A stretch of 64,000 nucleotides of DNA. Origin: Cryobacterium algoricola (GTDB lineage: Bacteria; Actinomycetota; Actinomycetes; Actinomycetales; Microbacteriaceae). The stretch spans positions 620,001 through 684,000 of the forward strand of contig NZ_SOFG01000004.1 of the NCBI RefSeq assembly GCF_004402485.1. The letters run 5' to 3'. Positions within the stretch are counted from its first letter, which is position 1, and every line of letters begins with the position of its first letter. The notes under the pieces are model-generated. The model did not search any database and was not told where the DNA came from. It was given only the letters and a program-made list of their open reading frames with translations. This document shows positions 9,831-29,604 of the stretch, in pieces. The translations under genes and the position numbers were made by a program.

Positions 9831-10930
9831 TGCCCGATTCCGGAGACCGGGCGGATGCCCCGGCGCGCCGCCGGACGCCGTCGCGCCTTCAGTGGGTGCT
9901 CACCGCCGGCGTCCTCGGAGTTGCGGTCGTCAGCGTCGCCATCATGGTCATCGTCGCCATCACGGGCCAGACCCAGAACCTCACGCAACCCACGACGCCC
10001 CCGTCCACCTCGCCGGCTTCTCCTGCACCCGAGACCGTGGCCGGCTGCCCGCCGTTCACGGTGACAGTGACGACCGCGCGCGAGCTCCAGGCGGCCCTCG
10101 ACGCCGTCAATCCCGGAAGCGTGATCGGCCTGGCCCCCGGCGTCTATCAGGGCACCTTCACTCTCCGCACCGGTGGCACCGCCGATGCGCCGGTCGCGCT
10201 CTGCGGCACGGCCGGAAGCATCCTCGACGGCGGCGGTGTACAGGGCGGCTACGTGCTGCACCTCGATCGCGTCGCCTACGTGCACCTGATCGGGTTCGCC
10301 GTGCGCAACGGCCAGAAAGGCGTCATGGCGGACCAAACCCGGAACGCCCTCATCCAGGGCCTCCAGGTGTCCCAGATCGGCGACGAGGCGGTACACCTGC
10401 GCAACAACAGCACCGACAACCGCGTCGCAGACAACCAGATCAGTGACACCGGGCTCCGCCGGCCGAAATTCGGCGAGGGTATCTACGTCGGAACGGCCGA
10501 GAGCAACTGGTGCGACGTGAGCGGCTGCGAGCCGGACCGCAGCGACCGGAACACGATCATCGGCAACCGGATCTCGGCGACGACCGCGGAAAGTGTGGAC
10601 ATCAAGGAGGGCACGAGCAACGGATTCCTCCAGCAGAACAGCTTCGATGGTTCGGGCATCACGAGCGCCGATTCGTGGGTCGATGTCAAGGGCAATGGCT
10701 GGATCATCGACGGCAACACCGGCGTCAACTCACCGATGGACGGATTCCAGACCCATCAGATCCTCGACGGCTGGGGCATTGGCAACATCTTCCGCAACAA
10801 CCAGGCCACGGTGAACGGCCCCGGCTACGGGTTCGCCCTCAAGCCGGCCAATGACAACGTGGTCGAGTGCAGCAACACCTCCGCCGATGCCGGCGAGGGA
10901 TCCTCGAATGTTCGCTGCGCTGCCGGCTGA
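9830..10930 (+). CDS. Membrane-anchored beta-helix protein (polysaccharide-active candidate), 366 aa
   Basis: The start chosen is ATG at 9830, inside the TGATG overlap with the previous stop. A cytoplasmic basic segment is followed by one helix at residues 22-46, then a Pro/Thr/Ser linker and a right-handed beta-helix. Conserved blocks are GEGIYVGTAESNW, VDIKEGTSNG and SADSWVDVKGNG. All three recur in the secreted protein at 11287-12318, so these two are paralogues. A buried acidic and lysine cluster in a beta-helix is typical of polysaccharide lyases, but I cannot name a catalytic residue with certainty. Six cysteines suggest disulphides outside the cell. Confidence 0.75.
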   Translation: MPDSGDRADAPARRRTPSRLQWVLTAGVLGVAVVSVAIMVIVAITGQTQNLTQPTTPPSTSPASPAPETVAGCPPFTVTVTTARELQAALDAVNPGSVIGLAPGVYQGTFTLRTGGTADAPVALCGTAGSILDGGGVQGGYVLHLDRVAYVHLIGFAVRNGQKGVMADQTRNALIQGLQVSQIGDEAVHLRNNSTDNRVADNQISDTGLRRPKFGEGIYVGTAESNWCDVSGCEPDRSDRNTIIGNRISATTAESVDIKEGTSNGFLQQNSFDGSGITSADSWVDVKGNGWIIDGNTGVNSPMDGFQTHQILDGWGIGNIFRNNQATVNGPGYGFALKPANDNVVECSNTSADAGEGSSNVRCAAG

Positions 10931-10954
10931 CCCTCGGGAAAACCAAATATTCAT

Positions 10955-10982
10955 TTGAGATTTCCTCAGGAACGTGTATCGT
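10955..10982 (+). promoter_or_regulatory. Candidate promoter of the secreted beta-helix gene
   Basis: TTGAGA and TATCGT are separated by 16 bases in a locally AT-rich stretch directly after the previous gene. The implied leader before the GTG at 11287 is about 300 nt long. Confidence 0.45.
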
Positions 10983-11286
10983 CGGGTGAACTAACGTTCC
11001 AAGTTTCCGGCAGCATTCTTGCCGTAATCTGCAGGCTGCTGTTGATCCCCGCCCCGCCTCTGCCATCGTGCACGCGACCGGTTCGGCTCCTGTCTTATTA
11101 CAGGGTGCTGCCGAAGTCACTTGCCATATTCTGTCGATCCATCCATGCGGTCATACCGTCATGCCGTCGACGACGTTCTGTGGTGCCCTCTCCACTCCGA
11201 CAGGGAGTTGTCGGCCTCGTGGTCCACCCGAGGTTCGACCGGTCAGGCAGTCTTCCTGTTTCACTCCACAGGAAGCAGTTGATTTC
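10983..11286 (+). other. Long leader before the secreted beta-helix gene
   Basis: About 300 bases without a gene separate the candidate promoter from the start codon. I could not match a known riboswitch, including the c-di-AMP class often found before secreted actinobacterial proteins. A reading frame continues upstream of the GTG but lacks a ribosome binding site. The 3' end folds into the hairpin at 11252-11275. Confidence 0.35.
11252..11275 (+). promoter_or_regulatory. Hairpin covering the ribosome binding site
   Basis: CTTCCTGT pairs perfectly with ACAGGAAG across an 8-nt loop. The 3' arm contains AGGAAG, the likely ribosome binding site, 11 bases before the GTG. The hairpin would hide that site unless opened, suggesting translational control. 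Confidence 0.45.
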
Positions 11287-12318
11287 GTGCTCCACTCATT
11301 CGCTCGTCCGTTGCGTTCACTCCCCCTCTCCCCCATCGACCGGCGGCTCTCCTCGCGCCGCGTGGCCGCCACCGCCCTCCTGACCGGCGCCGTCGCGCTC
11401 GCGGGGGTCGTCCTCGCCCCCGTAACGGCGCACGCCGCGACGGTGACGAATGTGTCGACATCCGCTCAGCTGAAGACCGCGCTCGGCGCCGCAAAGCCCG
11501 GCGACACCATTCACCTCGCGGACGGCACCTACTCCGGCAAGTTCGAGGCCTCGGCCGTCGGAACCGGGACGGCGCCGATCACCCTCACCGGCTCGCGGGC
11601 CTCCGTGCTCACGACCGGGTCGACCGGTTCCGGTTATGCCCTGCACGTCACGGGAGGGCACTGGAATCTCACGGGATTCCGGGTCGACAAGGCGGCCAAG
11701 GGCATCGTGCTCGACGATTCCGACTACACGGTCATCTCGAGCGTCGACGTCGGACACATCGGCCAGGAGGGGGTGCACGTGCGCCACAGCAGCACGAACG
11801 TGGTTCTGAAGAACTCCTACGTGCACGACACCGGCCTCACCTCGGCGAGCTACGGCGAAGGCGTCTACGTCGGCAGTGCGAACAGTAACTGGAGTTCCGT
11901 CATGGGTTCCTCGTCCTCCCCGGACAAGTCGGACAATGTGCTGATCCAGAACAACCGCATCGAGGACAACGCTGCCGAGGGCATCGACATCAAGGAAGGC
12001 ACGACCGGCGGGCGCATCACCGGCAACACCTTCCGCCACTCCGGCTACTCCGGCGACAACTCGGCCGACTCCTGGGTCGACGTGAAGGGCAATGGGTATT
12101 CGGTCTCGGGCAACTCCGGGTCCTCAACCCTCGAGGACGCGTTCCAGGTGCACTCCGTGCTCTCCGGTTGGGGCGGCAGGAACGATTTCGCCGCCAACAC
12201 AGTCACCGGCGGCGTCCCCGGCTACGAGGTCAACAACGCTTCGAAGACCGCGGGCAACGTGGTGCACTGCAAGACCTCAGGTGCCGGCAGCGGTCTCACA
12301 AACAAGGACTGCCAGTAG
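11287..12318 (+). CDS. Secreted right-handed beta-helix protein, 343 aa
   Basis: The GTG at 11287 gives a long signal peptide: an R-rich segment, a hydrophobic core at residues 26-46 and cleavage after AHA at 48-50. The mature part is a single beta-helix of about 290 residues that aligns through its whole length with the anchored protein at 9830-10930. It shares GEGVYVGSANSNW, IDIKEGTTGG and SADSWVDVKGNG. The lack of an anchor suggests release to the medium or capsule. A longer upstream frame exists but would bury the signal peptide. It is probably a polysaccharide-active enzyme acting on the product of the glycosyltransferase locus; substrate unknown. Confidence 0.8.
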   Translation: MLHSFARPLRSLPLSPIDRRLSSRRVAATALLTGAVALAGVVLAPVTAHAATVTNVSTSAQLKTALGAAKPGDTIHLADGTYSGKFEASAVGTGTAPITLTGSRASVLTTGSTGSGYALHVTGGHWNLTGFRVDKAAKGIVLDDSDYTVISSVDVGHIGQEGVHVRHSSTNVVLKNSYVHDTGLTSASYGEGVYVGSANSNWSSVMGSSSSPDKSDNVLIQNNRIEDNAAEGIDIKEGTTGGRITGNTFRHSGYSGDNSADSWVDVKGNGYSVSGNSGSSTLEDAFQVHSVLSGWGGRNDFAANTVTGGVPGYEVNNASKTAGNVVHCKTSGAGSGLTNKDCQ

Positions 12319-14810: not shown

Positions 14811-15626
14811 TCAGGAGCGGGTCGCGACCTCGTCCCGCGAAAGCTCGTCTCGGGCGAAAGCGGGGTCGTCGTCGAAGGACTTGATTCGGGCGACCTGGTA
14901 GATGATCACGGCGTAGACGGCCTTGGCGAGGATGTCGGCGACGGAATAGCCGACCTGTTTGAAGACCCAGGCATCCGCTCCCGAGATATTGAGCAGCGGC
15001 AGCAGGTATGCGATCGGGTAGACGCCCCAGCTGAGCAGGAGCAGGAACCGCAGCTGGCTCAGGATCCTGCGAACACCGGTCGGCTGCTGGTCGAGCGACT
15101 TGCTCAGTTGGACGAAGAGCACGAAGAGGATGTAGGCGAACGGGATGGTTGACAGCAGGCCGAACAGCCCGCGCAGGCCATTGTCGCCGCTGATCTCCCC
15201 CGGATAGCCCAGGATGATCATGAGCGCAGCGGCGGGAACGAGCCTCCGCAGCAGCGCCGACTGGACCGACCGGGCGAGCGCGAGTACCGCGACGAGTTCG
15301 ACGAGGAGCAACGGAACGGTGAGGAGCCAGTCGACGTAGCGGTAGCCCTCGTTGAACCCGGCGCCGACGGCCTGGGAGTAGTCGCCCGTTCCGCCGACGG
15401 CATCGGTCACGAACGCCGCCTTGAACGAGTCGAAGATGCGGAAGTAGTGGTAGGCGGCGATGCCGCAGACCACGATGGCCACCGTGATGGCCTGCCGGTA
15501 GCGCGGCAGGATGCGAGGCAGGGCGATCACGAGGAAGACGGCGGTGAAGAGCTGCGACGCGATGACGAGCGACAGGAAGTTGTAGACGGTCTCGTACTGT
15601 CCGTGCGAGAGGATATCTGGAATCAT
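14811..15626 (-). CDS. Light-driven proton-pump rhodopsin (proteorhodopsin/xanthorhodopsin type)
   Basis: The 271-aa seven-helix retinal protein carries the proton-pump triad: Asp99 (acceptor) in RYVDWLLTVP, Thr103, and Glu110 (donor). His60 in AAYHYFR matches the histidine that pairs with the acceptor in xanthorhodopsins. Lys235 in GYSVADILAKAVY is the retinal Schiff-base lysine. The residue equivalent to proteorhodopsin position 105 is Leu107, predicting green absorption. Gly156 in LFGLLSTIP keeps the opening that lets some xanthorhodopsins bind a carotenoid antenna. It pumps protons out under light. No retinal or carotenoid synthesis gene is visible in the window. It is divergent from a MarR gene. 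The ATG at 15626 has a GGAG site. Confidence 0.93.
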   Translation of the reverse strand: MIPDILSHGQYETVYNFLSLVIASQLFTAVFLVIALPRILPRYRQAITVAIVVCGIAAYHYFRIFDSFKAAFVTDAVGGTGDYSQAVGAGFNEGYRYVDWLLTVPLLLVELVAVLALARSVQSALLRRLVPAAALMIILGYPGEISGDNGLRGLFGLLSTIPFAYILFVLFVQLSKSLDQQPTGVRRILSQLRFLLLLSWGVYPIAYLLPLLNISGADAWVFKQVGYSVADILAKAVYAVIIYQVARIKSFDDDPAFARDELSRDEVATRS

Positions 15627-16245: not shown

Positions 16246-16276
16246 GGCCTGGACCGCGCTGAGGCCTGGCCGGAAC

Positions 16277-18049
16277 CTACGCTGTCGGCGGGTGCGTCAT
16301 GTCGGTGAATGAGAGTGCCGAGTCCCAGGCGAGACGGCTGGAGGCCTCTCCCCGACCGGTGCGCACCCGATACGCCGCCCACCGCGCGTAGCGCCCGTCG
16401 GCCCGCCTCGCCAGCACGGGTACGGCGCGCAGGTGCACGCCCTCCCTCGGCAGTTCTTCTCCGGGGAAGGTGAGGGGTGTCGGACGCAGGGTGATGCCGC
16501 TCGGGATGACGGGAACTCCGTCGCGGAGCAGTGCCGCCTTGCGCAGTGATACCTGGCCGGGCGTCAGCGCAACGGGTGCCAGCGGGATCCAGTGCGCGGG
16601 CACGAGTGATTGCAGCCGGTATGCCCGCTCGTCCTGGGTGAGACCCTCCGGCCACGGATCGGGAACGGGCGGCCGCTCGCTCGCGCGCCGCCGCGGGTCG
16701 CCGCTTCGACCCTGCACCGAGTTCTCGATGGCCCAGGCCATGTTCGCCATCTCGTCGCGCAGGAACAGCACGTCTTCAAGGGCTTCGCCCACGAGTGTGC
16801 CGACGGCCACGGGCGGCAACACGATGCCGGGGAGCATCCGCCCGGCCGCCGACGAAACGCCGAACATGGTGAATGCGGGATCGGCGAGCTCCGGAACCGT
16901 CACCGCGTCGCCGAAGTCGTCGGTAAGGGTGACGGTTCCGACCCTGTTGACCGCTCCGAGCAGGCCGTCGACCGGTACGGCCAGCCAGTCGTCGCCAGAG
17001 GACAGCGCGAATTCGGCAAGGCAGAGCCTCGCGAGGTCGTTCGTCTGCGCCTCGATGGCGCCCACGTCGACCGCGCCGTCCTCGAGCTGCCAGTAGCGGT
17101 CGGCCGGCATGCCGGGGAACCGTAGCGGAGTGGCGAGCATGGTCGCCTCGCTGCCGACGGGGGTGCCGCTCGGTGCCGCGTCCGGCAGTTCGGCGGTGGC
17201 GCCCTCGACCCAGTCGAGGTCGCTCCAGCGCACGGATGCCGAGCCGAACTGGGTGCCCCTGGCGAACACGGCGTTGGCCTGGTCTCCGAAACGCAGCGCG
17301 AAGCGGTACTCCAGGCGTTCGGTCGACCAGGCGCCCCCGGAATCGGGCTCGCCGTCCAGCCAGGCCAGCCACTCGGCGATCGCCGAACGCGCGGCTACGG
17401 CATCCGTCGCCTCGTCGATCCAGCCGGGATCTCCGGCGCGCAGCTCGATGGCGAGTGTTCCCCCGTCGGGAACGGCGCCGCCGAGCACAGCGAAGAGGCG
17501 TGCGGCCTGCGGGTCGTCGAGTCCGAGTGGATCGTTCGGGTCGTCGTCGAGGGCGAGCGGATGCCGGCCCGTGAGCGAGCGTGCGAGCGTCTCTTCGCCG
17601 GCGTCGGTCAGGAGGTCCACGAGCTGGGCTCCTGCCTCGGCGCGCTGTCGCAGGCCGTCGCCGAACGCGAGCTCCGGCACGTCCTGGATGAGCTCCTCGA
17701 GAAGCGCGCCCTCGCGCCAGGGCCGCCAGTCGGCGTCGGCCAGGTCGATCGTGTCGCCCGGCAGGGGGGCCCAGGCCGTGATCGGCAGCGCGCTCGACGT
17801 CACATTCACCGACACGACGGATCCGGCGTCTTCGCCGGTGAGCTCGCCGAACTGCCACTGCCGACCGAGCATCCACGCGGCATCGCCGATGCGCGCTTCG
17901 GCGCCGGGGGCCGGGTCGCCGGTGACCGAGTCGGGCTCGAGCCGCACCATGGCCGGTGGGTCGGCGACCTGCAGCAGCTTCAGGATCGCCGCCAGGTTCT
18001 GGTCGGTCACCGCGCTGACCATCATGTCGATGGGGATCTTGACGGCCAT
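16277..18049 (-). CDS. Uncharacterised large protein, fourth gene of the 12.8-kb operon (590 aa)
   Basis: I cannot assign a function. The ATG at 18049 is chosen because it shares one base with the previous stop (TGATG) and begins MAVKIPIDMM; the open frame extends further upstream only by chance. The clearest motif is WMLGRQWQFGELTGEDAGS at residues 59-77, which I recall from uncharacterised bacterial proteins where it reads WLLARQWQFGEFQGEDAGS. The remainder alternates acidic loops and strands (YWQLEDGAVDVGAIEAQ, FALSSGDDWLAVPVDGLLG). No signal peptide, membrane helix or enzyme motif is visible, so it is probably cytoplasmic. It is the last gene of the unit and converges on the MarR gene. 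Confidence 0.85.
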   Translation of the reverse strand: MAVKIPIDMMVSAVTDQNLAAILKLLQVADPPAMVRLEPDSVTGDPAPGAEARIGDAAWMLGRQWQFGELTGEDAGSVVSVNVTSSALPITAWAPLPGDTIDLADADWRPWREGALLEELIQDVPELAFGDGLRQRAEAGAQLVDLLTDAGEETLARSLTGRHPLALDDDPNDPLGLDDPQAARLFAVLGGAVPDGGTLAIELRAGDPGWIDEATDAVAARSAIAEWLAWLDGEPDSGGAWSTERLEYRFALRFGDQANAVFARGTQFGSASVRWSDLDWVEGATAELPDAAPSGTPVGSEATMLATPLRFPGMPADRYWQLEDGAVDVGAIEAQTNDLARLCLAEFALSSGDDWLAVPVDGLLGAVNRVGTVTLTDDFGDAVTVPELADPAFTMFGVSSAAGRMLPGIVLPPVAVGTLVGEALEDVLFLRDEMANMAWAIENSVQGRSGDPRRRASERPPVPDPWPEGLTQDERAYRLQSLVPAHWIPLAPVALTPGQVSLRKAALLRDGVPVIPSGITLRPTPLTFPGEELPREGVHLRAVPVLARRADGRYARWAAYRVRTGRGEASSRLAWDSALSFTDMTHPPTA

Positions 18050-21000
18050 CACTTCACCTCCGACAGGAACGGGATGCCGGCGCCGGCCCATTTCACCGTG
18101 GCCAATTCCGTGAACTGGAGCCCGGTGCGGACCTGCAGCCACGGGCTCGCCACGTAGATAGCGGGCAGGATGGCGGCGTCGCCCGGAGCGTGCTCGTAGG
18201 TCACCAGCCGGGCCTTGGCCAGTTCCACGGCCTCCAACACCGTCGCCACGACGGAATCGGTCGTCCACCGGGTGCCGTCAGGCGAGACGGCGGAGAGCAG
18301 CACCTGCGGCGCCCTCGCCGATGCCTGGTTGGCGTGCACGGCGAGCCCGGTGGTGGCCCTGGCCGCCCGCAGCGGGTTGTCCGGCGCCGCCGGATCGAAT
18401 GCCCGGGGGTCGGGTTGGAACGGCAGCGTCTCGGCCCAGCCGTCGATCGCGAGTCCGGCGAACGCCCCGGCGAAGTCGTCATGGCCACCGACGAGTTCGA
18501 CGACGAGATGGCTCGCGGATGCCGCCGGCCAGGGGATGTCGTCGGGGAGAGGCCCGGCCAGCCAGCGCTCCGTGCCCGCGGCCGGGACTCCGGTGGCCTC
18601 ATCGTGTTCCGTGAGCTGCACGATGCGCAGCGGGATCGGGATGCCGAGGGCCCCACCGAGTAGCTGCGCCTCGGCGAGACGTCCGACGCCGGCCTGGACC
18701 GAGGCGTGATCACGCACGAAGGCGTTGACGTGTGCATGCGCCGGCTGCTTCTTCATGGCCGGCGTGGTGATCGCGGCGTGGAACGAGTCGGTGCCGGCGG
18801 GCTTCGTCAGCAGGGGCAGGAGCAGGAAACCGTCGCCGAGGATCCCCTCGGCGACGGCGCGACAGGCATCGACGATCTCTCCCGGGGCGGCTGGGGTGTC
18901 GCGGGCCGGGTCGTTCAGGGCGGAGAGTGTCGCCCGGGCCTGCCCCAGTCGCGCGAACGCCGCCTGCCACGCGCCGACGGCCCACGCGACGTTCGATGGA
19001 ATCGCAGCATCCGGAACCAAGGGAACGCCGAAGGCCGCGAGCCCGCGCACGGCGTCGATCACGTCGGCCACGGCATTCTCGTCGACGGCCAGGCTGTCGG
19101 GGTCGATGGCGGCGATGACCGCCTGGCCGGAGGCGAGCGCGGCGGCGAGGGCGTCGAGCACGGCGCCGATACGCGCGATCAACTCGTCGGTGTCGATCAG
19201 GCGTTCCGGGGCGACTCCGGTGCGCACGAGCGAGTCGGGACCGAGCGGGGTTCCTCCGGCCGCGAGCGAGCGGAGGCTGCCGGCGAAAGTGGCGACGCGC
19301 AGCAGTCCGTCCGCGAGCGGAGAGTCGCCCAGGGCGGGTATGGCTGCACGCAGCTCACGGTCGAGGGAAGCCGCGTCGTCCGCGAAGACCAGGTCGAGAG
19401 CGGCCCAGCCGGCCTCGGCGAGGGTGTGACGGTTGGGGGCGTCGGTCACCGAGATGTCGGCGGGATCACCGAGTCGGCGCGCCGCCCACGCTTCCAGCCT
19501 CGGTTCGGCGAGGGCGCGGGGGCGGGTGGCCGACCAACCGGTCGCACCGGCCGGGATGGCCGCGAACACGCCGTGGGTGAGGATGCGTCCGGTCTGGCGC
19601 ACGCCCAGGATGCCGAGGTCGGGGTCGACGGCGGCGCCACTGGCCATGGCGTCCATTGCCGCGGAGGCGCGCGACGGGTTGCCGGACGAGTACTGCAGGA
19701 CGCTCTCGCTCAGAAGGGCATCCGAGACGGCGTCGAGGGTGGCGGCGGCTCCGCGCAGGGCTGCGACCAGGAGGTCCCACTCCGGGTTCGACACGGGGTC
19801 CCAATTCTCGACGAAGGCGTTGTCGGGCTTCAGGCTGAGGCGGGCGCGCAGCGGCGGGTCGGCCGCCGTGAGCGTATCGAGCGGGAACAGCCGGAGCAGT
19901 TCTGCACCGTCGACGACGTCGGCGGCGGCGACGCGGGCTGCCGCGACCTCTTGCGCTTCGTCGTTGCCGAGCTGATCGGTGGCGGCGGGCGCGATCTGCC
20001 GCAGGCTCAGCTGGAACCGGGCCGCCGAGGTCCCGGCGAGGCCGCGTTCGATCTGGTACCCGAGCAGGGCGCCGATCGACTGCCCGGCCGCGACGCCTTC
20101 GAGCACGCGTCGGAGTTCGACGCCGCGCCGACTCGACAGGTCGATGGCGAACGGTTGCTTCCCCGGCAGTGCGCCGATGTTGGAACGGTGCGCGCTCGCG
20201 AGCACGCCGGCGGCGACGGCGTGCGAGCTGCTCGGCGCGTGGATCCAGCCATCCGGATCGCTCCGGGCCGTTCCGAGACGGATCTGCTCGACGTAGCCGA
20301 ACGCGCCGATGGTCATTCCGACCGGGGCGGTTGCCGCCAGGGTGCCCTGGCGTGCCGTCGCGACGCCCGTCGCCCACGCGTCGACTCGATGGGATGCCAG
20401 ATCGAGAGCAGAGGCGACGGCGATGCGGCGCTCCTCGAGCGGGGCCGCCGCAAGCGCGATCATGGCGGCTCGCACCTCGCCGCCCACTCCGAAGGCATAG
20501 AGCAGTTCGGTGATGGCGCTGCTGCCGAGCCACTTCGCCTGCGGCGTGTCGCCGAGATCGAGTGCCACCTGTGCCAGGGAGGTGCGGGCCTCGGCGACCG
20601 GTTCGAAGGCGGCGATGCTCACACGCTCGGTCGGCTGTCCGTCGAAGTGCCGCACGGAAGCGACCCGCTCGGCGGCGGCGAAGAAGCGCTCGGGGGCGGT
20701 GTCGTCGATGGCGGCGTCGGCGGATGCCGCCACCGTGATGATCCTCCTGATCTCGGGGTCGAGCTCCACGAAATCGACCAGCGGGCCGACGAACTCCTGG
20801 GGCGCGGCGCGGAACCTCAGTCGCTTGGCGCCGTCCCAGGCGATGGCGAGCAGCGCCTGCAGCACGCTGTCGACCTTCGGCGTGGTCCCGGCCAGGATCT
20901 CGGCCACGACATCGGCATCGCGCTCCGAAACGAGGGGCAGGCCGATGGTGCGGGAGTCGTCGTGCGGCGCCGGAGTCTGCAGGATCTTGGCGGCGTCGAC

Positions 21001-22578
21001 GGAGAACTGCGCCATGATGGCCGTTCGCAGGCGAGCCTCAGCCAGCAGTTGGGCGGGATCCGCTCCGGTCGCAGCGGCGAACGACGCGAGCTGCGGGCCG
21101 TCGACCGCCGGTCGGGCGCGCACGCCCGTGGCGACCGGGCTGGTGCCGAGCATGTCGAGCAGGTCCTGGTCGTCGAGCTGCCCGCCGGGACGCACATGGG
21201 GAACGACGGGCGCTCGGCTCGCCCAACGGGAGAGCGTGCGCCGGATGAGCGGCACCAGCTGCGCCGTGGTCTCACCGGAGCGCGGGTTCCAGGCATCGAG
21301 ATCCGCGACCGGCAACACGCCGTAGGGCTGGGCGCCGATGCGCAGCGTCGGCGCCACCCCCGCTCCGCGAACGTAGTCACGGTGCAGGCGCCGGGCCGAC
21401 TCGATGCTTCCCGGGGTGACCGCGGGGATCGCGAGGTCATCGAGACGCTCGAGCACAGGCTCCCAGGTTGCGAACCAAAGTGCGGTATTGGCGGCGGCCT
21501 GGGCCTCGTCCTGGGTCGAGACCGGTCCAGCTGGCAGGAGATGTTCGACGGACGCAGCGTCGAGGCCGAGGGCCGCCGCGAGTCGAGTCGCGTCCCGCGA
21601 CGGCATGCGCGGTTCCACTTGCGGGCCACCGGCGCTTGCGGCGGGGTGATACGGCGAGCGCTCGGCGTCCGCATTGTTGGTGACGGTTCCGGGGGCCAGC
21701 AGCGAGACGCCGTCGGTGAACCTGTGGCTGGTGAGGAGGTCGACGAAGTCGGCGGCGTTGGCCTCCTCGGAGACCGAGTTGCGCGTTCCGACCACCACGA
21801 TGCGGTCGATGAGCGTGGTGCCGACGGGCAGCTGCACCTCCACCCCCAGGCCCGCGTTCTTTGCCGCATCGAAGTCGACTGTCCACTCCGAGCCGAGCGG
21901 CACGGTGAGGCCGGCCACCTGGCTCAGTTCGTCGTCGCCGAACGCGATCGGCGAGAGCGGCACGTCGGTCGCCACCGGCGAACCGGTCACCGTAATCGGT
22001 GCTGCTCCGTTGGGAAACACCCGCACCACGAACTGGTCGGGAAGGCAGCGGGCCACGGTGCCGTGGGCCACCTCTTCCGGTGATTCCGGGAAGACCGGGG
22101 CACCCTGTCCTCGGGTGGCGAGGTTGGTGGGCGTCGTGACCTCGGCCACCCACCCGGCGCGACGTTCCCCGACGGCCGCGGTGAGTGCGGGCCAGGCGAA
22201 CGCATCGGCGGCGTCGACCCAGACGGCCGACCAGTACGCCACCCCGGCCGCGACCTCGGCGTCCGTCACCGAGCGCAGCAGGCTGTCGATGTGCGCCTCG
22301 TCGGGCGAGATGCGCACCCGAAGCGTCGACGTGCCCGGTGTCAGCTTGCTCTCGATACGGACGGGCAGCAGCACCAGGGGAACCTCCGGAGAGGCATCAC
22401 ACGGGTCGAGGTGATCCCGCAGCCCGCCGATGATCGCGCGCAGGTCGTCGTCGAGCGTGAGGATCTCGCCGCGCCGAAGGTGGTCGGCCGGACGACGGAT
22501 GAGCGTTCGGCGCTGCTCGGCCAGGATGGCGATGCGCTCGCGAACTCTGGCCAGGACGGCTGGGGTGTCGACGGGCAT
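18049..22578 (-). CDS. Uncharacterised giant protein, third gene of the operon (1509 aa)
   Basis: No function can be assigned. The N-terminus is a helical segment (residues 1-58), followed by VLLPVRIESKLT at about 69-80 and VRISPDEAHIDS at 88-99. These motifs recur in large hypothetical proteins I recall as LLPVRLETRF and VRIYPDDIHVD. A long Ala-rich helical middle follows. The C-terminus has GLAIDGWAETLPF, TTGLAVHANQASARAPQVLL and AVELAKARLVTYEHAPG, again recurrent in uncharacterised proteins. It has no signal peptide, membrane segment or nucleotide-binding motif. It begins 3 bases after the previous stop and overlaps the next start by one base, so production is translationally coupled. Soluble and probably structural or scaffolding, by inference. 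Confidence 0.85.
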   Translation of the reverse strand: MPVDTPAVLARVRERIAILAEQRRTLIRRPADHLRRGEILTLDDDLRAIIGGLRDHLDPCDASPEVPLVLLPVRIESKLTPGTSTLRVRISPDEAHIDSLLRSVTDAEVAAGVAYWSAVWVDAADAFAWPALTAAVGERRAGWVAEVTTPTNLATRGQGAPVFPESPEEVAHGTVARCLPDQFVVRVFPNGAAPITVTGSPVATDVPLSPIAFGDDELSQVAGLTVPLGSEWTVDFDAAKNAGLGVEVQLPVGTTLIDRIVVVGTRNSVSEEANAADFVDLLTSHRFTDGVSLLAPGTVTNNADAERSPYHPAASAGGPQVEPRMPSRDATRLAAALGLDAASVEHLLPAGPVSTQDEAQAAANTALWFATWEPVLERLDDLAIPAVTPGSIESARRLHRDYVRGAGVAPTLRIGAQPYGVLPVADLDAWNPRSGETTAQLVPLIRRTLSRWASRAPVVPHVRPGGQLDDQDLLDMLGTSPVATGVRARPAVDGPQLASFAAATGADPAQLLAEARLRTAIMAQFSVDAAKILQTPAPHDDSRTIGLPLVSERDADVVAEILAGTTPKVDSVLQALLAIAWDGAKRLRFRAAPQEFVGPLVDFVELDPEIRRIITVAASADAAIDDTAPERFFAAAERVASVRHFDGQPTERVSIAAFEPVAEARTSLAQVALDLGDTPQAKWLGSSAITELLYAFGVGGEVRAAMIALAAAPLEERRIAVASALDLASHRVDAWATGVATARQGTLAATAPVGMTIGAFGYVEQIRLGTARSDPDGWIHAPSSSHAVAAGVLASAHRSNIGALPGKQPFAIDLSSRRGVELRRVLEGVAAGQSIGALLGYQIERGLAGTSAARFQLSLRQIAPAATDQLGNDEAQEVAAARVAAADVVDGAELLRLFPLDTLTAADPPLRARLSLKPDNAFVENWDPVSNPEWDLLVAALRGAAATLDAVSDALLSESVLQYSSGNPSRASAAMDAMASGAAVDPDLGILGVRQTGRILTHGVFAAIPAGATGWSATRPRALAEPRLEAWAARRLGDPADISVTDAPNRHTLAEAGWAALDLVFADDAASLDRELRAAIPALGDSPLADGLLRVATFAGSLRSLAAGGTPLGPDSLVRTGVAPERLIDTDELIARIGAVLDALAAALASGQAVIAAIDPDSLAVDENAVADVIDAVRGLAAFGVPLVPDAAIPSNVAWAVGAWQAAFARLGQARATLSALNDPARDTPAAPGEIVDACRAVAEGILGDGFLLLPLLTKPAGTDSFHAAITTPAMKKQPAHAHVNAFVRDHASVQAGVGRLAEAQLLGGALGIPIPLRIVQLTEHDEATGVPAAGTERWLAGPLPDDIPWPAASASHLVVELVGGHDDFAGAFAGLAIDGWAETLPFQPDPRAFDPAAPDNPLRAARATTGLAVHANQASARAPQVLLSAVSPDGTRWTTDSVVATVLEAVELAKARLVTYEHAPGDAAILPAIYVASPWLQVRTGLQFTELATVKWAGAGIPFLSEVK

Positions 22579-22581
22579 GGT

Positions 22582-25500
22582 CTACGCCTCTCTCACGATG
22601 AGGTCCGTCGCCTGGAACGCGACTCGCACCGGCCGGTGCAGGTGTTTCTCGGCATAGGCGGCGGAATGCGCTGCCGTGTCGGTCAGGTGCTTCTGGTCTG
22701 CCGGCAGCTGGGCATCGGCCGGTCGCTGGAATCGGGTGGCGCTGGGATGCTCGGCGATGGTGATCCACCACTGCTCTCCGTCGAGTTCGTCGACGGAAAG
22801 ATCGACGCCCACGAGCGCGATGTCGGGATCTAGCACCTCGGAGAAGAGCACGCGGGCGGTCTGCTGGGGCGAGCCGACCTTCTCGAAGACCGGATCGCGC
22901 ACGGTCCCCTGGTTCTTCACCGCCTGAATGATGAGATCGGGGAATCGCCGCACAAGCTCGCTCTTGACCACGATCACTGCGCGGCCGTCGCCGCCACCGA
23001 GGGAAATCTGCGATGCCAGGGGCGTCGCGGGGAACAGGTGGATGGGCGTCGCCAGCTCGTCTGCTTTCGGGTTCCAGAAGCGATGGAAGTAGGTGCCGCG
23101 CTGGTCGGTCGGGTATCCTCGCCAGAGCAGCTCCCGCCCCATCTCGTCGCTCAGACCGACGAAGAACGCCGCCATGAATTCACTGTTGGTGGAGAGCACC
23201 GTGACGAAGTCGTCGGCCGGCAGGAGACCGAGCCCGGGAACCAGCCATTCCCGGTCGTATTCCTCGAGTGCGCGGTACATCGGCCGGTCGAAACGCGGCG
23301 ACGCCATGATCGGTGCGATCCGCGGCTGGGCGAACCAGCGATCGGCGAGGCCGCTGCTGAGGTGAAGTCGACCGGCGAGGGACGAGCGCACGGTGTGCCT
23401 GGGATCGATCGCCGTGGCGATGGCAGCGGATGCGACGGCCAGGGTGTCGCGGTGCGGCACGGGATCGATCGTGAGCAGTGCCCCTGGATCGATGAGCGAC
23501 GTCATCTCGGCGCGCAACACGTCGAGCGGAAGCTCGTTGATGCGGTCGAGGGCGGGGGTGAGCTTCACCTCGGCCAGGGCCGCGAACTGTGCCAGCCCGG
23601 CATCGAGTTCGGCCGCGTCCCTCAGGTCGCCGAGCTTCGTGAGGTGCTGCGCGTCGATGACTCTGAGTCCGCGTCCGCCGATGAGCACGTGGCCTACGAC
23701 CGGGATGCGACGGAATTCACCGCCGCCGAGTGGAACCCGCACCGCACCGCCGCCCTGCGGGAGGCGGCCAACGGCGCCGCCGATGGGTGATCGCCTGATG
23801 ATCGGCGCTCGCGGGTTCAACGGTGCGACGATCGGGCCGACCTCGAAGGGGTGCAGGTCGACCGGGTGCACATCGACCGGGTGCACATCGACGGGGTGCA
23901 CATCCACAGGGTGCACATCGAAGACCCCGAGATCGACCAGTACCCGGTCGTTCAGCTTCACGGCCCTGCCCTTCAGGCGCTCGCGCAGGGGGCTCGCAAT
24001 TGTCGCTGTCGAGAGCGAGAGCTCGGCAGCGAGCGGGCCGATGCGCTGGGCGCGGATGGACTCGATCGCGGGAACGGACGAGGAGCGCAGCAGCCTCTCG
24101 CTCCACCGGGTGGCGATGTCCGCGCCCAGGTCGAAGCCGGTGTCGACCGCACTCCAGCGACTCGGCTCCGTGAGGTAGGTGGCGAAGCCGCCCGTGCCCT
24201 CGACGCGTGCGTTCGCTTCCTTCAAGAGGCCGCCGATGGTGTCGACAGGAGCGCCGATCGCCGCACTGACGAGTTGCAGGTCGAGGTGGGCGACGACGTC
24301 GGCCGTGAGTCGCCCGATGCCCTCGGGGTTCGCGTACACCCGGGTGAAGTCGCGGAGCCCCGCGTCGGTTCCCACGACGTTGCCGGCGCGTTGACGGGAG
24401 GCGGCATCCGTTCTCCGGATCATCGGTCCGTCCGGGCGGGTGACCCTTCGAAAGGCGCTCTCGGTCGCTGCGACGGGGGTCGCACTCAGGACCACATCGG
24501 CGAACAGCGTGCTGCCCGCGGTGACCGAGATCCGGGTGGCGAGAGGAGCAGCGACCTGGAGCAGGTGCCCGGCCTGCAGCTCACCGAGCCTGCCGTGGAG
24601 TCTGGTCGCGAGCAGTTCAGCCAGCTGGGCCAGGCGGATGGCGCGATTCGCCGCCTCCACTTCCCCGAGCTGGGCCCACGCCGACTGCATCAGCCGCTCC
24701 TGGTCCCGCTGCACCACTCGGGTTCCGAGTCCGCCCACGATGCGCTTCACGGGAGCGAGATTCAGCTCGGCGAACCAGTCGGAGCCCTCGATGACGGCGC
24801 TGCCACGGTGCAGCTTCGCGTAGATGCGCGGCCCAATGATGGGCAGGTCGGGCACACCGTCCGTCTGCTTCTGCGTGCCCTCGATGGCGGCAGGCAGATC
24901 GAGTTCGGCGCGCAGGTCGTCGACCATGTCGTCGGGCCAGACCGCCGTCTCCGCGATCTGCTGCTCAGGAGTCGACGGCGCGCTTGGCGAGAACAGGGCG
25001 CAGCGCAGCACCTGCTTGCGCCCGACCTCGTCGGCAGCGAGCGCCCGCAGCGGCTTGCCCGGTTGCGACGTGTCGATGAACTTCCGCCCGACCTCGTAGG
25101 GTGCCGCGATGCCCTGCAGCTTGATCGCGAGCGAACGGAAGTCGCCGTCGGGACCGGTGCGGAATTCCCAGCTGTCGTAGACCGGAAGGCGCATCGGGTC
25201 GGGTGAGGAACTGGTCCAGGCCGGGTCGAGGGTGCCGCCCGCGACGCCGAGGCCTCCCCGAACTCCCACGTCGGTCGTCGGCACGAGGGCAGCGATGTAG
25301 TCGGTGTCCTGCTTCAGGATGCGCGGTGAGATGACCCGAGACAGGTTGACGGGAGCGTGCGCCGGTGAGAAGCGGGCGGAGAGGTCCTGCCCCGACGTCG
25401 TGGCCGGCACCTGGGCATGCGCCCAGAGGTCGGCGTGGGTGAGCGTGGGCAGTTGCGCGAGCGCCACCTGGAAGACGGGGAGCAGTGCGGTGGTCGCCGG

Positions 25501-25998
25501 CTCGCGCGTGACCGTCGAGCGCTCCAGCACGACAAGAGTGAGCCAGGGACGCATGACGGGAGCCTGCTGGGCGGCGCTGAACGCCCAGGGCAACTCGGGG
25601 CGATCGAATTCGATGTGGGCCAGCACGGTCTCCTCGGCCGTGCGGGCGCCCGGTGCGGGGAAGCGCCGCACGATCTGCGCCGGGTCGATGCCCCGCACGT
25701 CGCCCGGACCGTACAGGGTCACCGAGAGGGCTGCGGATGCCGTCCCCCCGGCGCTGTCGCCCAGGGGCACCTCCACCCGGGAGCTGGAACGCACGCTGCC
25801 GGCGGGCGGAGCGCTCGCCGCCGCGGCGAGGCCGCCGACGACGGTCGATGCGAACTCGAGCGACTCGATCGCCACGGCGCTCTCGTCGAATTCGTCCTCG
25901 GGAGCGATCATCAGGGCGAACGCGTCAGGCACCACGTGGGTGGCGGTGCGGTCGAGCGGCGCGATGACGCTCGCTGCGATGGCATCCAGGTCGGCCAT
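22582..25998 (-). CDS. Uncharacterised giant protein, second gene of the operon (1138 aa)
   Basis: Function unknown. Motifs I recall only from uncharacterised proteins are PELPWAFSAAQQ at residues 134-145, RPWLTLVVLE at 150-159, GYPTDQRGTYFHRFWN near 960 and DPDIALVGVDLSVDEL followed by WWITIAEHPSATRFQ near the C-terminus. In relatives the last two read YPTDQRGTYFRQFWD and an EQPTEPRFGLDE-like tail. The middle has a short tandem repeat of VDVHP at about residues 692-716. It has no signal peptide and no membrane helix. The start follows the stop of the DUF6603-like gene by 4 bases with an AAGGGG site inside that gene. The repeated His-Pro segment is unusual and could be a flexible or metal-binding linker. 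Confidence 0.85.
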   Translation of the reverse strand: MADLDAIAASVIAPLDRTATHVVPDAFALMIAPEDEFDESAVAIESLEFASTVVGGLAAAASAPPAGSVRSSSRVEVPLGDSAGGTASAALSVTLYGPGDVRGIDPAQIVRRFPAPGARTAEETVLAHIEFDRPELPWAFSAAQQAPVMRPWLTLVVLERSTVTREPATTALLPVFQVALAQLPTLTHADLWAHAQVPATTSGQDLSARFSPAHAPVNLSRVISPRILKQDTDYIAALVPTTDVGVRGGLGVAGGTLDPAWTSSSPDPMRLPVYDSWEFRTGPDGDFRSLAIKLQGIAAPYEVGRKFIDTSQPGKPLRALAADEVGRKQVLRCALFSPSAPSTPEQQIAETAVWPDDMVDDLRAELDLPAAIEGTQKQTDGVPDLPIIGPRIYAKLHRGSAVIEGSDWFAELNLAPVKRIVGGLGTRVVQRDQERLMQSAWAQLGEVEAANRAIRLAQLAELLATRLHGRLGELQAGHLLQVAAPLATRISVTAGSTLFADVVLSATPVAATESAFRRVTRPDGPMIRRTDAASRQRAGNVVGTDAGLRDFTRVYANPEGIGRLTADVVAHLDLQLVSAAIGAPVDTIGGLLKEANARVEGTGGFATYLTEPSRWSAVDTGFDLGADIATRWSERLLRSSSVPAIESIRAQRIGPLAAELSLSTATIASPLRERLKGRAVKLNDRVLVDLGVFDVHPVDVHPVDVHPVDVHPVDLHPFEVGPIVAPLNPRAPIIRRSPIGGAVGRLPQGGGAVRVPLGGGEFRRIPVVGHVLIGGRGLRVIDAQHLTKLGDLRDAAELDAGLAQFAALAEVKLTPALDRINELPLDVLRAEMTSLIDPGALLTIDPVPHRDTLAVASAAIATAIDPRHTVRSSLAGRLHLSSGLADRWFAQPRIAPIMASPRFDRPMYRALEEYDREWLVPGLGLLPADDFVTVLSTNSEFMAAFFVGLSDEMGRELLWRGYPTDQRGTYFHRFWNPKADELATPIHLFPATPLASQISLGGGDGRAVIVVKSELVRRFPDLIIQAVKNQGTVRDPVFEKVGSPQQTARVLFSEVLDPDIALVGVDLSVDELDGEQWWITIAEHPSATRFQRPADAQLPADQKHLTDTAAHSAAYAEKHLHRPVRVAFQATDLIVREA
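23851..23925 (-). repeat. Five 15-bp tandem units encoding VDVHP repeats
   Basis: Five consecutive 15-base units of the form GTGCACATCGACCGG keep the reading frame and encode repeated D-V-H-P-V. The second and third units are nearly identical and the outer ones diverge. Copy number probably changes by slippage. Confidence 0.85.
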
Positions 25999-26002
25999 CA
26001 GG

Positions 26003-29000
26003 TCACCCCTTCACGATCATGCGCGTCGCAGTCGCGGCGCTCTCGGTGTTGACGGCGGTTGTCACGAGCGCCGCCTGCGTAGCGCTCAGTTCGCCGAGGC
26101 CGGCGAGCAGCGTGGCGCCGGTGGCGGCATCCGCTATCGTCGACGTGCCCTTGTCGGAGACCGTGACGCCGGCGTTCGGCGGAGCCGGTTGCGTGTAGGG
26201 ATTCCCGACCTCGCGCACAGCCCTGCCCACGTTGGTCTTCGTGGCGTAGGAGCTGGAGATGACGGCGAACGCCCCCGTGAATTCGATCATCGCCGACGGC
26301 TCGTCGGGATTGCGGACGTAGGTCTGATAGGCCACCGTCGCCGGCGTCGCGGTTCCGACCTTCGGGGTGGTCGCAGCGGCGATGCGGTATCCGCCGGTCA
26401 TGTCCTCGAAGCCCGAGCGGGCGAGCAGGGACTCGCCCTCGAGCGCGAAGAACTGCCCGGGGGCGAACGCCGTCTTGAGTTCGCTGACAGCGCCGACGAG
26501 CCCGGAGTCCGGGGTCGCGGTCGGCGTGCCGATGGTCACCATGTCGGCCTTCACCGCTGCCGAGCCGATGCGGGCGATCGCGACGCCCAAGGGCACCTGG
26601 GTTTGCGACACCTCGAGTCCGGCCAGCGGATGCGCGATTCGGCCCTCGATGTCGTCGACCTCGGCCAGGGTGACGAGTTGCGCTGCGTGGTCGGGCAGCT
26701 GCACCTTCCAGGCGTCTGGCTCGTTCATCGCCGCTGCGGCGATCTGGAGGGCATCGACCGTTGCGGTGATCGGCGTGGGCTTCTCACCCCACTCGACGGG
26801 TCCGAGGTCCTCGTCGAAGGTGGGAAGGAACCAGACATCGACCTTGATGTGGCCCGCCAGGCGGAACGGTGTGGTGCCTTCGAGCGAGCCGCGGAAAACA
26901 ATGGAGCAGAGCGTGAAGCCGAGCAGCTCGACCTCGACACCCACCTCGATGGTGATCTTGAATGCGAAGCGCGGCGCCCAGATGAAGATCATGTCGAGAG
27001 TGAGCCAGGCCTTCGCCACGATGACGGAGAAGTCTGCGTTGAGGCGCCCGTCGACGCCGAGCATGACCGAGCCGGCCGTGATGGCGAAGTACGCCTTGAT
27101 GACGAAGCTGATCGCCTTGGACGGCGAGAGGTCGATGGTGACCCTGTCCATGTCGCCGAGCTTCGGCTTGCCGCCCGTCAGTTTCTCGTACTCCGGGTGG
27201 AAGCCGCCGACCGAGAACTCGAACGCTCCGGTGCCCGACCACTGGATGTAGAGGCCGAGGTCACCCGAAATCTTGATGCCGGCCACCGTGGAGTCGCGCA
27301 TGCTCGCGAACAGCAGCAGGTAGTCGGGGGTGATGGCCACGAAGACGTCGGCGCGGATGTCGGTGATCGGCGCCTCCTTCGTCGGCACCCGCACCCGCAG
27401 GGAGCCGAGAATGACGATCATCGGATCGGGAAGTGCGAGCACCACGCCGAGCTTCATCTCCACGAACTTCGCCTGCGAGCCCCAGCCGAGTTCGACGATC
27501 GGGCCGAAGACGAAGCCACCGTCCTTCGGCGGGAACACGTGCGCGACCTTATCGAGCAGCTTCGGCGCCTCGGCGACGGGGTTGTCGGGGAACAGCATCT
27601 TGTCGAGGATGTGCTCCTTCATCCCGGAGCGCAGCTCTTCGAGGTCAAGACCCCGGTTGAGCGCCAGGATGCCGCCGATGCCGTTCAGCGTGAATCCCAT
27701 GCTGAGGTCGATCGCAACGGGGAAGCGCACGCCGATGACGAGCACGATGGAGAACGGATCCGGCGAGAGGATGACGATGGCCGACAGGCCGAACTTGAGG
27801 ATCTGAAGCTGGACGACCCCGCCGAACTCGACCCGCTTCACATCCTGCCCGTCGACCTTGTAGGTGCGTTCGACGCGTTGGATGAACCCACCACCCGTGA
27901 CGGGGCCCGCCTTCACTCGCAGGCCGATCGCATCTGGCCAGCGCGGCGAGACGGGGAGGTTGAAGACGGCCTGTTGCTCGGCCTGACCCTCGGGGGTCAC
28001 CACGAAACCGGAGCCGACGATCTGCAGCCCGATGACATCGCCGAGCTTCGCCGCGATGGACGTGGTGAGTTCGAATCCGGTGACCTCACGGGCCGGGTTG
28101 CGCACGAGCCCGAACGCCACCTCGCGCAGTTCGACCCCCGGGAAGGAGAAACGCGTGGGCAGGACCGCCTTCTCGTTGCCGCGGCCGTCTCCGAGGTAGA
28201 ACCCCTGTCCGGTATCGAGCGACACCGTCGTGAGAGTCGTGGCCTTCGGGTCCTCCGAGCCCGGCATGACCTTCGCCAGCAAGGGGTCGCTCGTGAGGCC
28301 GGGCTGAAGGATGGTGCGGAAGCGCAAGCCGAGGATCGCCACATCGCCCAGGAACCACTTTCCGTCACGCTCGAGCAGGCTGGTCTTCTCCTCGGCCGTG
28401 GGGTTCGCGATCTCGCGGTCACTGAACTGCAGGAACGCCTCGAACGTGACCTGGTCGAGCGTCATCGCGCCGAGCTTCACCTGGCCGGAGCGGAGGAATG
28501 TGGCAGCCAGGAGGAACTTCCCGTCGGTGCGGTCCAGGGCGAGGTTGTCACCGAGCTTCTTCACCAGGTCATCGACACCGAGCACATTCTTCCCGAAGCT
28601 GTTCAGGAGCTTGCCCGAACCTGCGCCGAGATTCTTGAACGGCTGCGCCCACGGGTTCCACACGTCCATCAGACCGGAACGGATGGCCTCGTCGACGGTG
28701 CCGTCCGCCTTCCTGGCCAGCTCCTTGGCGACGATGTTGAACGCCTCGTCCATGGCGGCGAGGGCCATGCCGATGCGCACAGCGACCCTCGCGGCGGTAT
28801 CGACGTTGAAGTCGTCCTTGTCGATGTCGTCTGCCGATTCCTTCACCATCTTGGCGATGAGCTCGGTCTGCTTCTTGATCTTGTCGGCAATCGGTTCGAC
28901 CAGAGCGACGGCGGCCTTGATGTCCGCCTTGAGCTTGTCGAAGGTCGGTTTCACGTCGCCGACGGCGCCGAACGTGACGATCGACTCGAGGAACGGCACC

Positions 29001-29092
29001 GTGTCTTTAAAGGACGTGCCGCTCAGGGCACCGAGGCGTGAATTGGCGAATGCTTCGATCCCGTTGAGGAATCCGGTTCCGATGTCGGTCAT
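26003..29092 (-). CDS. DUF6603-like giant protein, first gene of the operon (1029 aa)
   Basis: The start is ATG at 29092 (MTDIGTGFLNGIE). Residues 1-160 are helical and charged (FDKLKADIKAAVALVEPIADKIKK). From about 190 to 780 there are regular amphipathic beta strands. The core near 450-620 contains GFTLNGIGGILALNRGLDLEELR, MLFPDNPVAEAPKLL, a FPPKDGGFVFGP segment and LGWGSQ, which I recognise as DUF6603. The rest of the beta-rich part reads like a long repetitive sheet (KLGVVLALPDP, LGLYIQWSGTGAFEFSVGG). The C-terminal 250 residues are different and may be a separate domain. No signal peptide is present. DUF6603 has no known function. A hydrophobic groove or channel is possible, by inference only. 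Confidence 0.85.
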   Translation of the reverse strand: MTDIGTGFLNGIEAFANSRLGALSGTSFKDTVPFLESIVTFGAVGDVKPTFDKLKADIKAAVALVEPIADKIKKQTELIAKMVKESADDIDKDDFNVDTAARVAVRIGMALAAMDEAFNIVAKELARKADGTVDEAIRSGLMDVWNPWAQPFKNLGAGSGKLLNSFGKNVLGVDDLVKKLGDNLALDRTDGKFLLAATFLRSGQVKLGAMTLDQVTFEAFLQFSDREIANPTAEEKTSLLERDGKWFLGDVAILGLRFRTILQPGLTSDPLLAKVMPGSEDPKATTLTTVSLDTGQGFYLGDGRGNEKAVLPTRFSFPGVELREVAFGLVRNPAREVTGFELTTSIAAKLGDVIGLQIVGSGFVVTPEGQAEQQAVFNLPVSPRWPDAIGLRVKAGPVTGGGFIQRVERTYKVDGQDVKRVEFGGVVQLQILKFGLSAIVILSPDPFSIVLVIGVRFPVAIDLSMGFTLNGIGGILALNRGLDLEELRSGMKEHILDKMLFPDNPVAEAPKLLDKVAHVFPPKDGGFVFGPIVELGWGSQAKFVEMKLGVVLALPDPMIVILGSLRVRVPTKEAPITDIRADVFVAITPDYLLLFASMRDSTVAGIKISGDLGLYIQWSGTGAFEFSVGGFHPEYEKLTGGKPKLGDMDRVTIDLSPSKAISFVIKAYFAITAGSVMLGVDGRLNADFSVIVAKAWLTLDMIFIWAPRFAFKITIEVGVEVELLGFTLCSIVFRGSLEGTTPFRLAGHIKVDVWFLPTFDEDLGPVEWGEKPTPITATVDALQIAAAAMNEPDAWKVQLPDHAAQLVTLAEVDDIEGRIAHPLAGLEVSQTQVPLGVAIARIGSAAVKADMVTIGTPTATPDSGLVGAVSELKTAFAPGQFFALEGESLLARSGFEDMTGGYRIAAATTPKVGTATPATVAYQTYVRNPDEPSAMIEFTGAFAVISSSYATKTNVGRAVREVGNPYTQPAPPNAGVTVSDKGTSTIADAATGATLLAGLGELSATQAALVTTAVNTESAATATRMIVKG

Positions 29093-29494
29093 CGTGTCCC
29101 ACTTTGTGTTCAGGAGCCGCGCTGGCCTGCGATCCTGGTTTCGTGCGTCGGTCCACGTCCTGCGGACGTTTCGGCTCCGGGCGCTCACCCCATGAATACG
29201 CGGATTCGGGGCGCGGACGGAGGACACCCGAACACAGCGGGCATCGCGAGAATTCAGTTGTTCAGGGTGGTCAAGTGGCGCGGCATTGCGGGAGCTGAGA
29301 ACTGATCTGCGGAAGAGCATAGACCCGGGGCAGGGCGAGCGTCTAGAGGCTTGTCGAGGGGGCCGTTATCGCCTGACTTCAAATTCTGTGCCGTGTCGTG
29401 TTGTCTCGCTTTCGACCCAGACGAGAAAAGAAGAGGGCCTCTGGCAACCACCGTGGCACGTGCGGCGAAAAACGATGGGTCCGGACAAAGAAAG
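29093..29494. other. Leader and promoter region of the four-gene operon
   Basis: About 400 bases separate the DUF6603-like gene from the tRNA-Gln terminator. A TTGACC at 29269-29274 on the minus strand has only a weak -10 17 bases on. I see no strong ribosome binding site before the ATG at 29092 and no credible gene. Confidence 0.35.
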
Positions 29495-29526: not shown

Positions 29527-29532
29527 TTCAAG

Positions 29533-29604
29533 CTGGGGTACCTGGACTCGAACCAAGAACAACTGAACCAGAATCAGTCGTGTTGCCAATTACACCATAC
29601 CCCA
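29533..29604 (-). tRNA. tRNA-Gln (CTG)
   Basis: The 72-nt tRNA begins TGGGGTA. Anticodon stem ACTGA/TCAGT encloses loop TTCTGGT with anticodon CTG, and the T arm ends TACCCCA plus discriminator G. It is immediately downstream of gltX on the same strand. In organisms without GlnRS, GltX charges this tRNA with Glu before amidation; whether that applies here is not shown. Confidence 0.95.

Follow-up and report, generated by a model that had tools for sequence, protein, structure and literature searches.

The 64,000-nucleotide window analysed here, from Cryobacterium algoricola (contig NZ_SOFG01000004.1, positions 620,001 to 684,000), carries four adjoining genes for giant proteins, here called A to D (Table 1), whose families co-occur far beyond chance and keep one gene order in distant phyla. 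Comparison of loci and genomes gives good support to the view that this cassette is gained or lost as a unit and has spread horizontally, and it leads us to infer strongly that the products of A to D form one complex. We moderately favour a role of A in holding lipid or touching a membrane on two grounds: the hydrophobicity pattern and the predicted shape of this protein point the same way, and the accessory gene found most often is phosphodiesterase-like. The explanation that we tentatively place first, with a chance slightly short of even, is that the proteins assemble in the cytosol around a sheet of A that holds lipid or contacts a membrane, and that exchangeable enzymes are added in some lineages.

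Four protein families in one conserved order

A first-pass annotation of the same DNA had described four genes, their sizes, gaps of 4 and 3 bases and a one-base overlap, all of which the coordinates of the open reading frames (ORFs) bear out: the gaps separate A from B (25999-26002) and B from C (22579-22581), and C and D overlap at 18049 (TGATG). The single operon that it proposed is supported. The fixed stoichiometry that it also read from the layout is not supported, as tight gene spacing does not imply it. Protein A matched PF20248 (DUF6603) at E 7.2e-96 over residues 317-887, scoring 322 bits against a Pfam cut-off of 27 and covering positions 5-501 of the 502-position profile, which confirms the family named earlier for the first gene; it had no other Pfam match at E<=1, and the DUF6603 family description gives no function. 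No Pfam match at E<=1 and no NCBIfam match over cut-off was obtained for B, C or D (the single one of B, at E 0.067, being far below cut-off). The best PHROG matches of these three proteins were no better than E 0.12, none of the four had a credible one, and PADLOC returned 0 families at E<=1 for all four, leaving the defence role suggested in the annotation without support. Profile searches of PDB sequences with alignments of 74 (D), 59 (B) and 61 (C) sequences gave 1, 0 and 3 matches for the three families, all at E 0.12 or worse. Profile-profile comparison among B, C and D showed no convincing homology (probabilities of 0.1, 14.9 and 0.1%), and an internal duplication is unsupported, the match of C to D (67 columns, E 0.0018, probability 14.9%) being unproven. 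The reading in the annotation would have been refuted if each protein had turned out to be a known enzyme, and none did. A literature search confined to open-licence papers found none naming DUF6603, DUF7800, PF20248, PF25077 or IPR046538, and on the basis of these papers only we rate this kind of system as new.

Of 396 sampled genomes of the phylum, 12 had A, 10 had B, 9 had C, 10 had D and 7 had all four, with pairwise overlaps of 8-10 genomes (kinship ignored, p ranged from 1.6e-12 for the 8 genomes sharing A and D to 2.8e-18 for the 10 sharing A and B). Rare co-occurrence, given earlier as a ground for calling the adjacency accidental, was thus looked for and the families do co-occur; the expectation that they travel together in distant organisms is borne out by these counts and by the gene order in several phyla described below. 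Two genomes rated 100% complete (G204 and G246) are exceptions in carrying A alone, there a divergent DUF6603 protein, and partial sets were found in five drafts of 80-590 contigs: A and B in G261, A, B and D in G206, A, B and C in G344, C and D in G269, and D alone in G308. The divergent DUF6603 frames measure 1545 codons in G204 (L016 12207-16805), 3280 in G261 (L019 3592-13434) and 1022 in G246 (L030 15319-18366); a weak relative of B follows in G261 and G246, and these loci perhaps represent a second form of the system.

When a one-genome-per-species collection was scanned with D, 374 stretches were found to encode a relative, and the best 80 of these, corresponding to 79 loci, were analysed. 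The D loci span Actinomycetota, Pseudomonadota, Acidobacteriota, Nitrospirota, Verrucomicrobiota, Bacteroidota and one haloarchaeon, and five of the bacterial phyla showed the full order A-B-C-D, as did a plasmid of the haloarchaeon Salinigranum; the single Verrucomicrobiota locus had only C-D within reach. Counting only loci with enough sequence and applying set distance limits, C preceded D in 74 of 76 loci, B preceded C in 60 of 62 and A preceded B in 47 of 48. The misses were L050 and L056 for C-D, L056 and L099 for B-C, and L077 for A-B; B and A lie on the opposite strand past D in L099, and A lies downstream in L077. Moreover, C and D are fused into a single open frame at 7 of the 76 loci and also in G193, and a Rhizobium plasmid has both B and C divided into two adjacent genes each. 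Fusion and fission of neighbours, together with a fixed order over large evolutionary distances, are classic signs from which physical interaction of the products may be deduced. Two further observations concern gene structure: Nitrospira loci (including L091, 3756-4589) have a separate gene of about 278 codons between B and C, rich in Gln and Ala and resembling a coiled coil, and C of Cryobacterium sp. MP_M3 (L046 5549-9902) lies in two overlapping frames, reflecting a frameshift or a sequencing error.

Within the genus, A was found in 3 of 37 genomes, that of the window included. In the sister genome G400 the whole block is replaced by about 900 different bases (Table 1) and no DUF6603 match was found, and Cryobacterium glucosi (G429) carries the entire block. 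On its lower side the missing interval begins about 25 bases past the stop codon of D, and on its upper side it stops 41 bases beyond the 3' end of tRNA-Gln, the 3' end of a tRNA gene being a usual site for gene islands. In another genome, G506, a match to the 3' portion of tRNA-Gln is found about 30 kb away from gltX (L229, C1:955500-962000; C1:988971-990727), a pattern that looks as if another island had entered the same tRNA gene. The D protein of a further cassette in the genus (G397) is 32% identical to that of the window, indicating a separate acquisition or an old paralogue. A putative relative in Arthrobacter sp. SO3, of another family, has a D 95% identical to that of the window, with contamination of the assembly being possible. 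Plasmid-borne relatives occur as well, in 14 records by D and 15 by A, the hosts including Streptomyces, Rhizobium, Nocardia and haloarchaea.

A phage origin of the cassette is disfavoured. None of 41 viral candidate stretches encodes a relative, and no virus was found carrying the cassette; among 50,697 phage records the one match was MT835531.1 (L133), an unverified and unannotated record from human faeces labelled Bacteriophage sp., whose other long frames read, by eye, as genes of a bacterial chromosome; the record looks like a cassette-bearing fragment of one. These results bear on the suggestion that A to D belong to a contractile injection system or are what is left of a phage tail. Giant uncharacterised proteins beside effector-like genes do recall such clusters, one neighbour is labelled peptidoglycan-binding, and a second matches such a domain below threshold. 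However, the PHROG and viral searches speak against this explanation, as does the finding that no sheath or baseplate gene was among the neighbour ORFs scanned with Pfam, and we rank it as the least likely of all, with only a very slight chance of being correct.

The predicted sheet of A and the accessory genes

The AlphaFold2 model of A contains a giant antiparallel beta sheet (Table 1), with blocks of pLDDT (predicted local distance difference test) 76-95 for residues 381-770 and 39-81 for residues 285-380. Over 22 strands of this sheet the hydropathy difference between the two faces is 3.04 Kyte-Doolittle units, compared to 1.47±0.23 in shuffled strands, with 0 of 2000 shuffles reaching the observed value, and the family average shows 2.73 compared to 1.17; for the 12 strands of D the values were 1.60 and 1.68. 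A measure of amphipathy independent of structure gave 71% for residues 337-768 of A compared to 48% after local shuffling (z 3.4), and 48-62% (z 2.0-3.8) for four other A proteins. Among the controls, the barrels LptD, FhuA and BamA reached 22-28%, LacZ 34% and TolB 28%. The shapes nearest to the model in Foldseek were apolipoprotein B and porins. Of the functions guessed at in the first-pass annotation, a lipid-handling beta sheet is the best fit to A as modelled.

Judged by hydropathy and by eye, no signal-peptide-like N-terminus was present in A to D or in the homologues examined, haloarchaeal ones included, in agreement with what had been noted from the letters. Absence of membrane helices, noted likewise, is likely but unproven for C, as two internal stretches passed the rule-of-thumb value of 1.6, one around residue 437 of A, within predicted strands, and one around residue 1140 of C, which is Ala-rich. 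Since A is predicted to be hydrophobic on one face and lacks a signal-peptide-like N-terminus, that face should be covered by lipid, membrane or partner proteins. The same N-termini argue against a surface structure in which all four proteins would leave the cell by some undescribed route and form a coat on it; this is suggested by product names of C and D on two haloarchaeal plasmids (BGTF surface and lamin-tail domains) and by a VCBS repeat label on one B, and we regard it as highly improbable.

Accessory genes were sought in up to 9 kb of sequence upstream of 48 A genes from 44 genomes, at least six of these genes being second copies or lying apart from the locus found by D. In 13 of the 48, a PhoD-like protein ends at or inside the 5' part of the A frame, with carriers including two Nitrospira, Devosia, Bryobacterales, Humibacillus, Micromonospora and three Streptomyces. 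Such a gene also precedes A in G397 and Salinigranum (Pfam PhoD over cut-off in both) and in G051 (below cut-off), and Streptomyces longwoodensis has the same kind of gene before A, judged by eye from its N-terminus. The PhoD-like frames have 790-1542 codons, and the motif columns GDQIYADD, DDHE and GD-H, which we take to be the metal-site motifs of PhoD, are kept in at least 12 of the 13; when the Pfam PhoD model was applied to four such proteins, two were over cut-off, one was below it and one had no match. PhoD-type enzymes act on phosphodiesters, for example phospholipids and teichoic acids. A WD40-like protein occupies the same place in 6 of the 48, all six at loci with fused C-D. Mapped on a D tree with 38 labelled rows, PhoD requires 4 changes and WD40 requires 1; L091 was labelled from a neighbouring A copy, and 'none' stands for no similarity to the queries used. 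Peptidase genes also abut the core, M64 peptidases in G108 and G326 and subtilases in Phycicoccus and Nocardia, and in L117 a catalase-like frame, named by eye, overlaps D. Clustering of flanking ORFs showed no neighbour common to more than 11 of 92 sources, most loci being short of the far-upstream A region. Two Micromonospora loci (L106 5279-7075 and L108 11886-13682) have a frame of 599 amino acids closely after D, and that of L106 had no Pfam match.

In the mechanism that we propose, the four genes would form the core of a single cassette that is exchanged horizontally, and their products would make up one assembly in the cytosol. A would supply the giant antiparallel sheet, and its continuous hydrophobic face would hold lipid or dock on or in a membrane, with B, C and D as scaffold proteins that clamp and shape it. 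The conserved RQWQFGE and GMPADR segments of D may fold only against a partner. In some lineages an added gene directly before A or after D (PhoD-like, subtilase, M64 peptidase or WD40) would provide an exchangeable module, which the core could present or guide to a membrane or lipid substrate; the presentation of an exchangeable enzyme by the core is the most speculative step. The wider proposal of an undescribed machine of several bacterial phyla and haloarchaea, a lipid-carrying or membrane-docking particle that is built in the cytosol, spreads horizontally and has a fixed chassis of four proteins plus a slot for exchangeable enzymes, is somewhat unlikely to hold in this complete form.

Several results weigh against a lipid-holding or membrane-contacting A. 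The model of A is of middling confidence (mean pLDDT 66.5, predicted template modelling score (pTM) 0.50), and over full-length A the structure-free measure falls to 50% compared to 41% in shuffled sequences (z 1.9), with B at 43% and C at 41% not far below it (D 28%). The lipid-transfer control TamB, at 61%, lies farther from its own shuffles (z 6.6) than the sheet of A (z 3.4); the controls are few and all from E. coli, whose proteins are less rich in Ala and Val, and composition accounts for part of the excess in A. The Foldseek matches are weak (best E 2.7e-4, template modelling scores of about 0.15-0.17), big meandering sheets look alike without kinship, and A matched no lipid-transfer family in Pfam at E<=1. 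In addition, the genome of the window has no PhoD match and no accessory enzyme abutting the cassette, from which it follows that the core can work without the enzyme or with another one encoded elsewhere.

The hydrophobic face could instead be buried against B, C or D, as would be the case in a protein-only hollow shell, cocoon or filament with the accessory enzymes as cargo. Large proteins without signal-peptide-like N-termini, the beta-rich A and the different enzyme families abutting the core would suit such a particle. All three motifs noted earlier (WxLxRQWQFGE, LLPVRxE and PTDQRGTYF) are present, and R, Q, W, Q and E of RQWQFGE in D are invariant across 74 aligned sequences; this segment falls in a low-confidence region of the monomer model, and best-conserved segments left unordered in a monomer are what one expects of interfaces. 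The self-assembling shell of the first-pass annotation gained no positive evidence, and we consider this explanation unlikely. Less likely still, and in our judgement improbable, is a membrane-perforating machine directed against other cells, in which A would insert as a very wide beta barrel and let the accessory enzyme through. The structural neighbours of A include porins and pilus ushers, accessory hydrolases and peptidases occur, and the patchy distribution in the genus and the plasmid copies fit such a weapon. On the other hand, the amphipathic pattern of A is unlike that of the three outer-membrane barrel controls, the cassette of the window has no adjoining accessory enzyme, and a secretion route, receptor-binding part or immunity gene was not identified, none having been searched for systematically.

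Features of the locus

The GC (guanine plus cytosine) content at codon position 3 is 0.86-0.89 across the ORFs of A to D, and we take the long plus-strand frames across them to be shadows of a GC-rich genome. By eye, Shine-Dalgarno-like purine-rich stretches lie ahead of B, C and D, that of A being weak, and the start codon of A agrees with the N-terminus of a Rhizobium homologue. In one species pair, with C. glucosi, the ratios of nonsynonymous to synonymous substitution rates were 0.075 for A, 0.102 for B, 0.142 for C and 0.091 for D; these low values therefore indicate real proteins under purifying selection. B of C. glucosi is 30 residues longer than that of the window at the DVHPV repeat (Table 1). 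Upstream of the cassette are tRNA-Gln and gltX, and downstream are a rhodopsin gene (14811-15626), with matches, some of them short, in 42 of 57 genomes of the genus, and a major facilitator superfamily transporter. Near the rhodopsin gene, three plus-strand frames at 7824-12318 have beta-helix matches, and two of them are also NosD-like.

Table 1. Coordinates of the cassette and associated features in the window (TRF, Tandem Repeats Finder; aa, amino acids).
Feature	Position	Strand	Remarks
Gene A	26003-29092	minus	1029 aa, DUF6603, first of cassette
Gene B	22582-25998	minus	1138 aa, family without any model
Gene C	18049-22578	minus	1509 aa, family without any model
Gene D	16277-18049	minus	590 aa, family without any model
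Giant antiparallel beta sheet predicted in A	26789-28240	minus	residues 285-768, about 28 strands, one hydrophobic face, AlphaFold2
PTDQRGTYF motif of B	23086-23112	minus	conserved in alignments
15-bp tandem repeat in B linker	23849-23921	minus	TRF 4.9 copies, codes DVHPV repeats
LLPVRxE motif of C	22351-22371	minus	conserved in alignments
RQWQFGE motif of D	17843-17863	minus	residues 63-69
tRNA-Gln adjoining cassette	29532-29604	minus	
Interval missing from sister genome G400	16251-29491		flanks 91% and 89% identical

Comparison with known systems

Four giant proteins, three of them from families without a model in the libraries searched, keep one order from Actinomycetota and Pseudomonadota to Nitrospirota and haloarchaea, and it is uncommon for a mobile block with no described function to be conserved in this way. 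Should A indeed hold lipid, prokaryotes would have a counterpart of the giant lipid-carrying beta sheets in their cytosol, and the enzyme slot, if real, would make the system a general platform for delivery or processing.

The PhoD-like accessory gene can be compared to PhoD-like phosphatases/phosphodiesterases with a DUF7800-type N-terminus, whose motifs it keeps but from which it is divergent. For A, comparison with an outer-membrane beta barrel falls short in that the protein lacks a signal-peptide-like N-terminus and the genus Cryobacterium has no outer membrane. The beta belt of apolipoprotein B100 superposes loosely on A at 3% identity, and we claim no kinship. A further parallel is provided by the TamB/AsmA-like and bridge-like lipid-transfer proteins, which have a long beta sheet with a hydrophobic face as predicted for A, and TamB and the sheet of A have a similar share of amphipathic stretches. 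In contrast to these proteins, A shows no sequence match to them in Pfam at E<=1 and no N-terminal membrane anchor was seen, its operon holds three unrelated partners, and the hosts of the cassette include organisms without an outer membrane.
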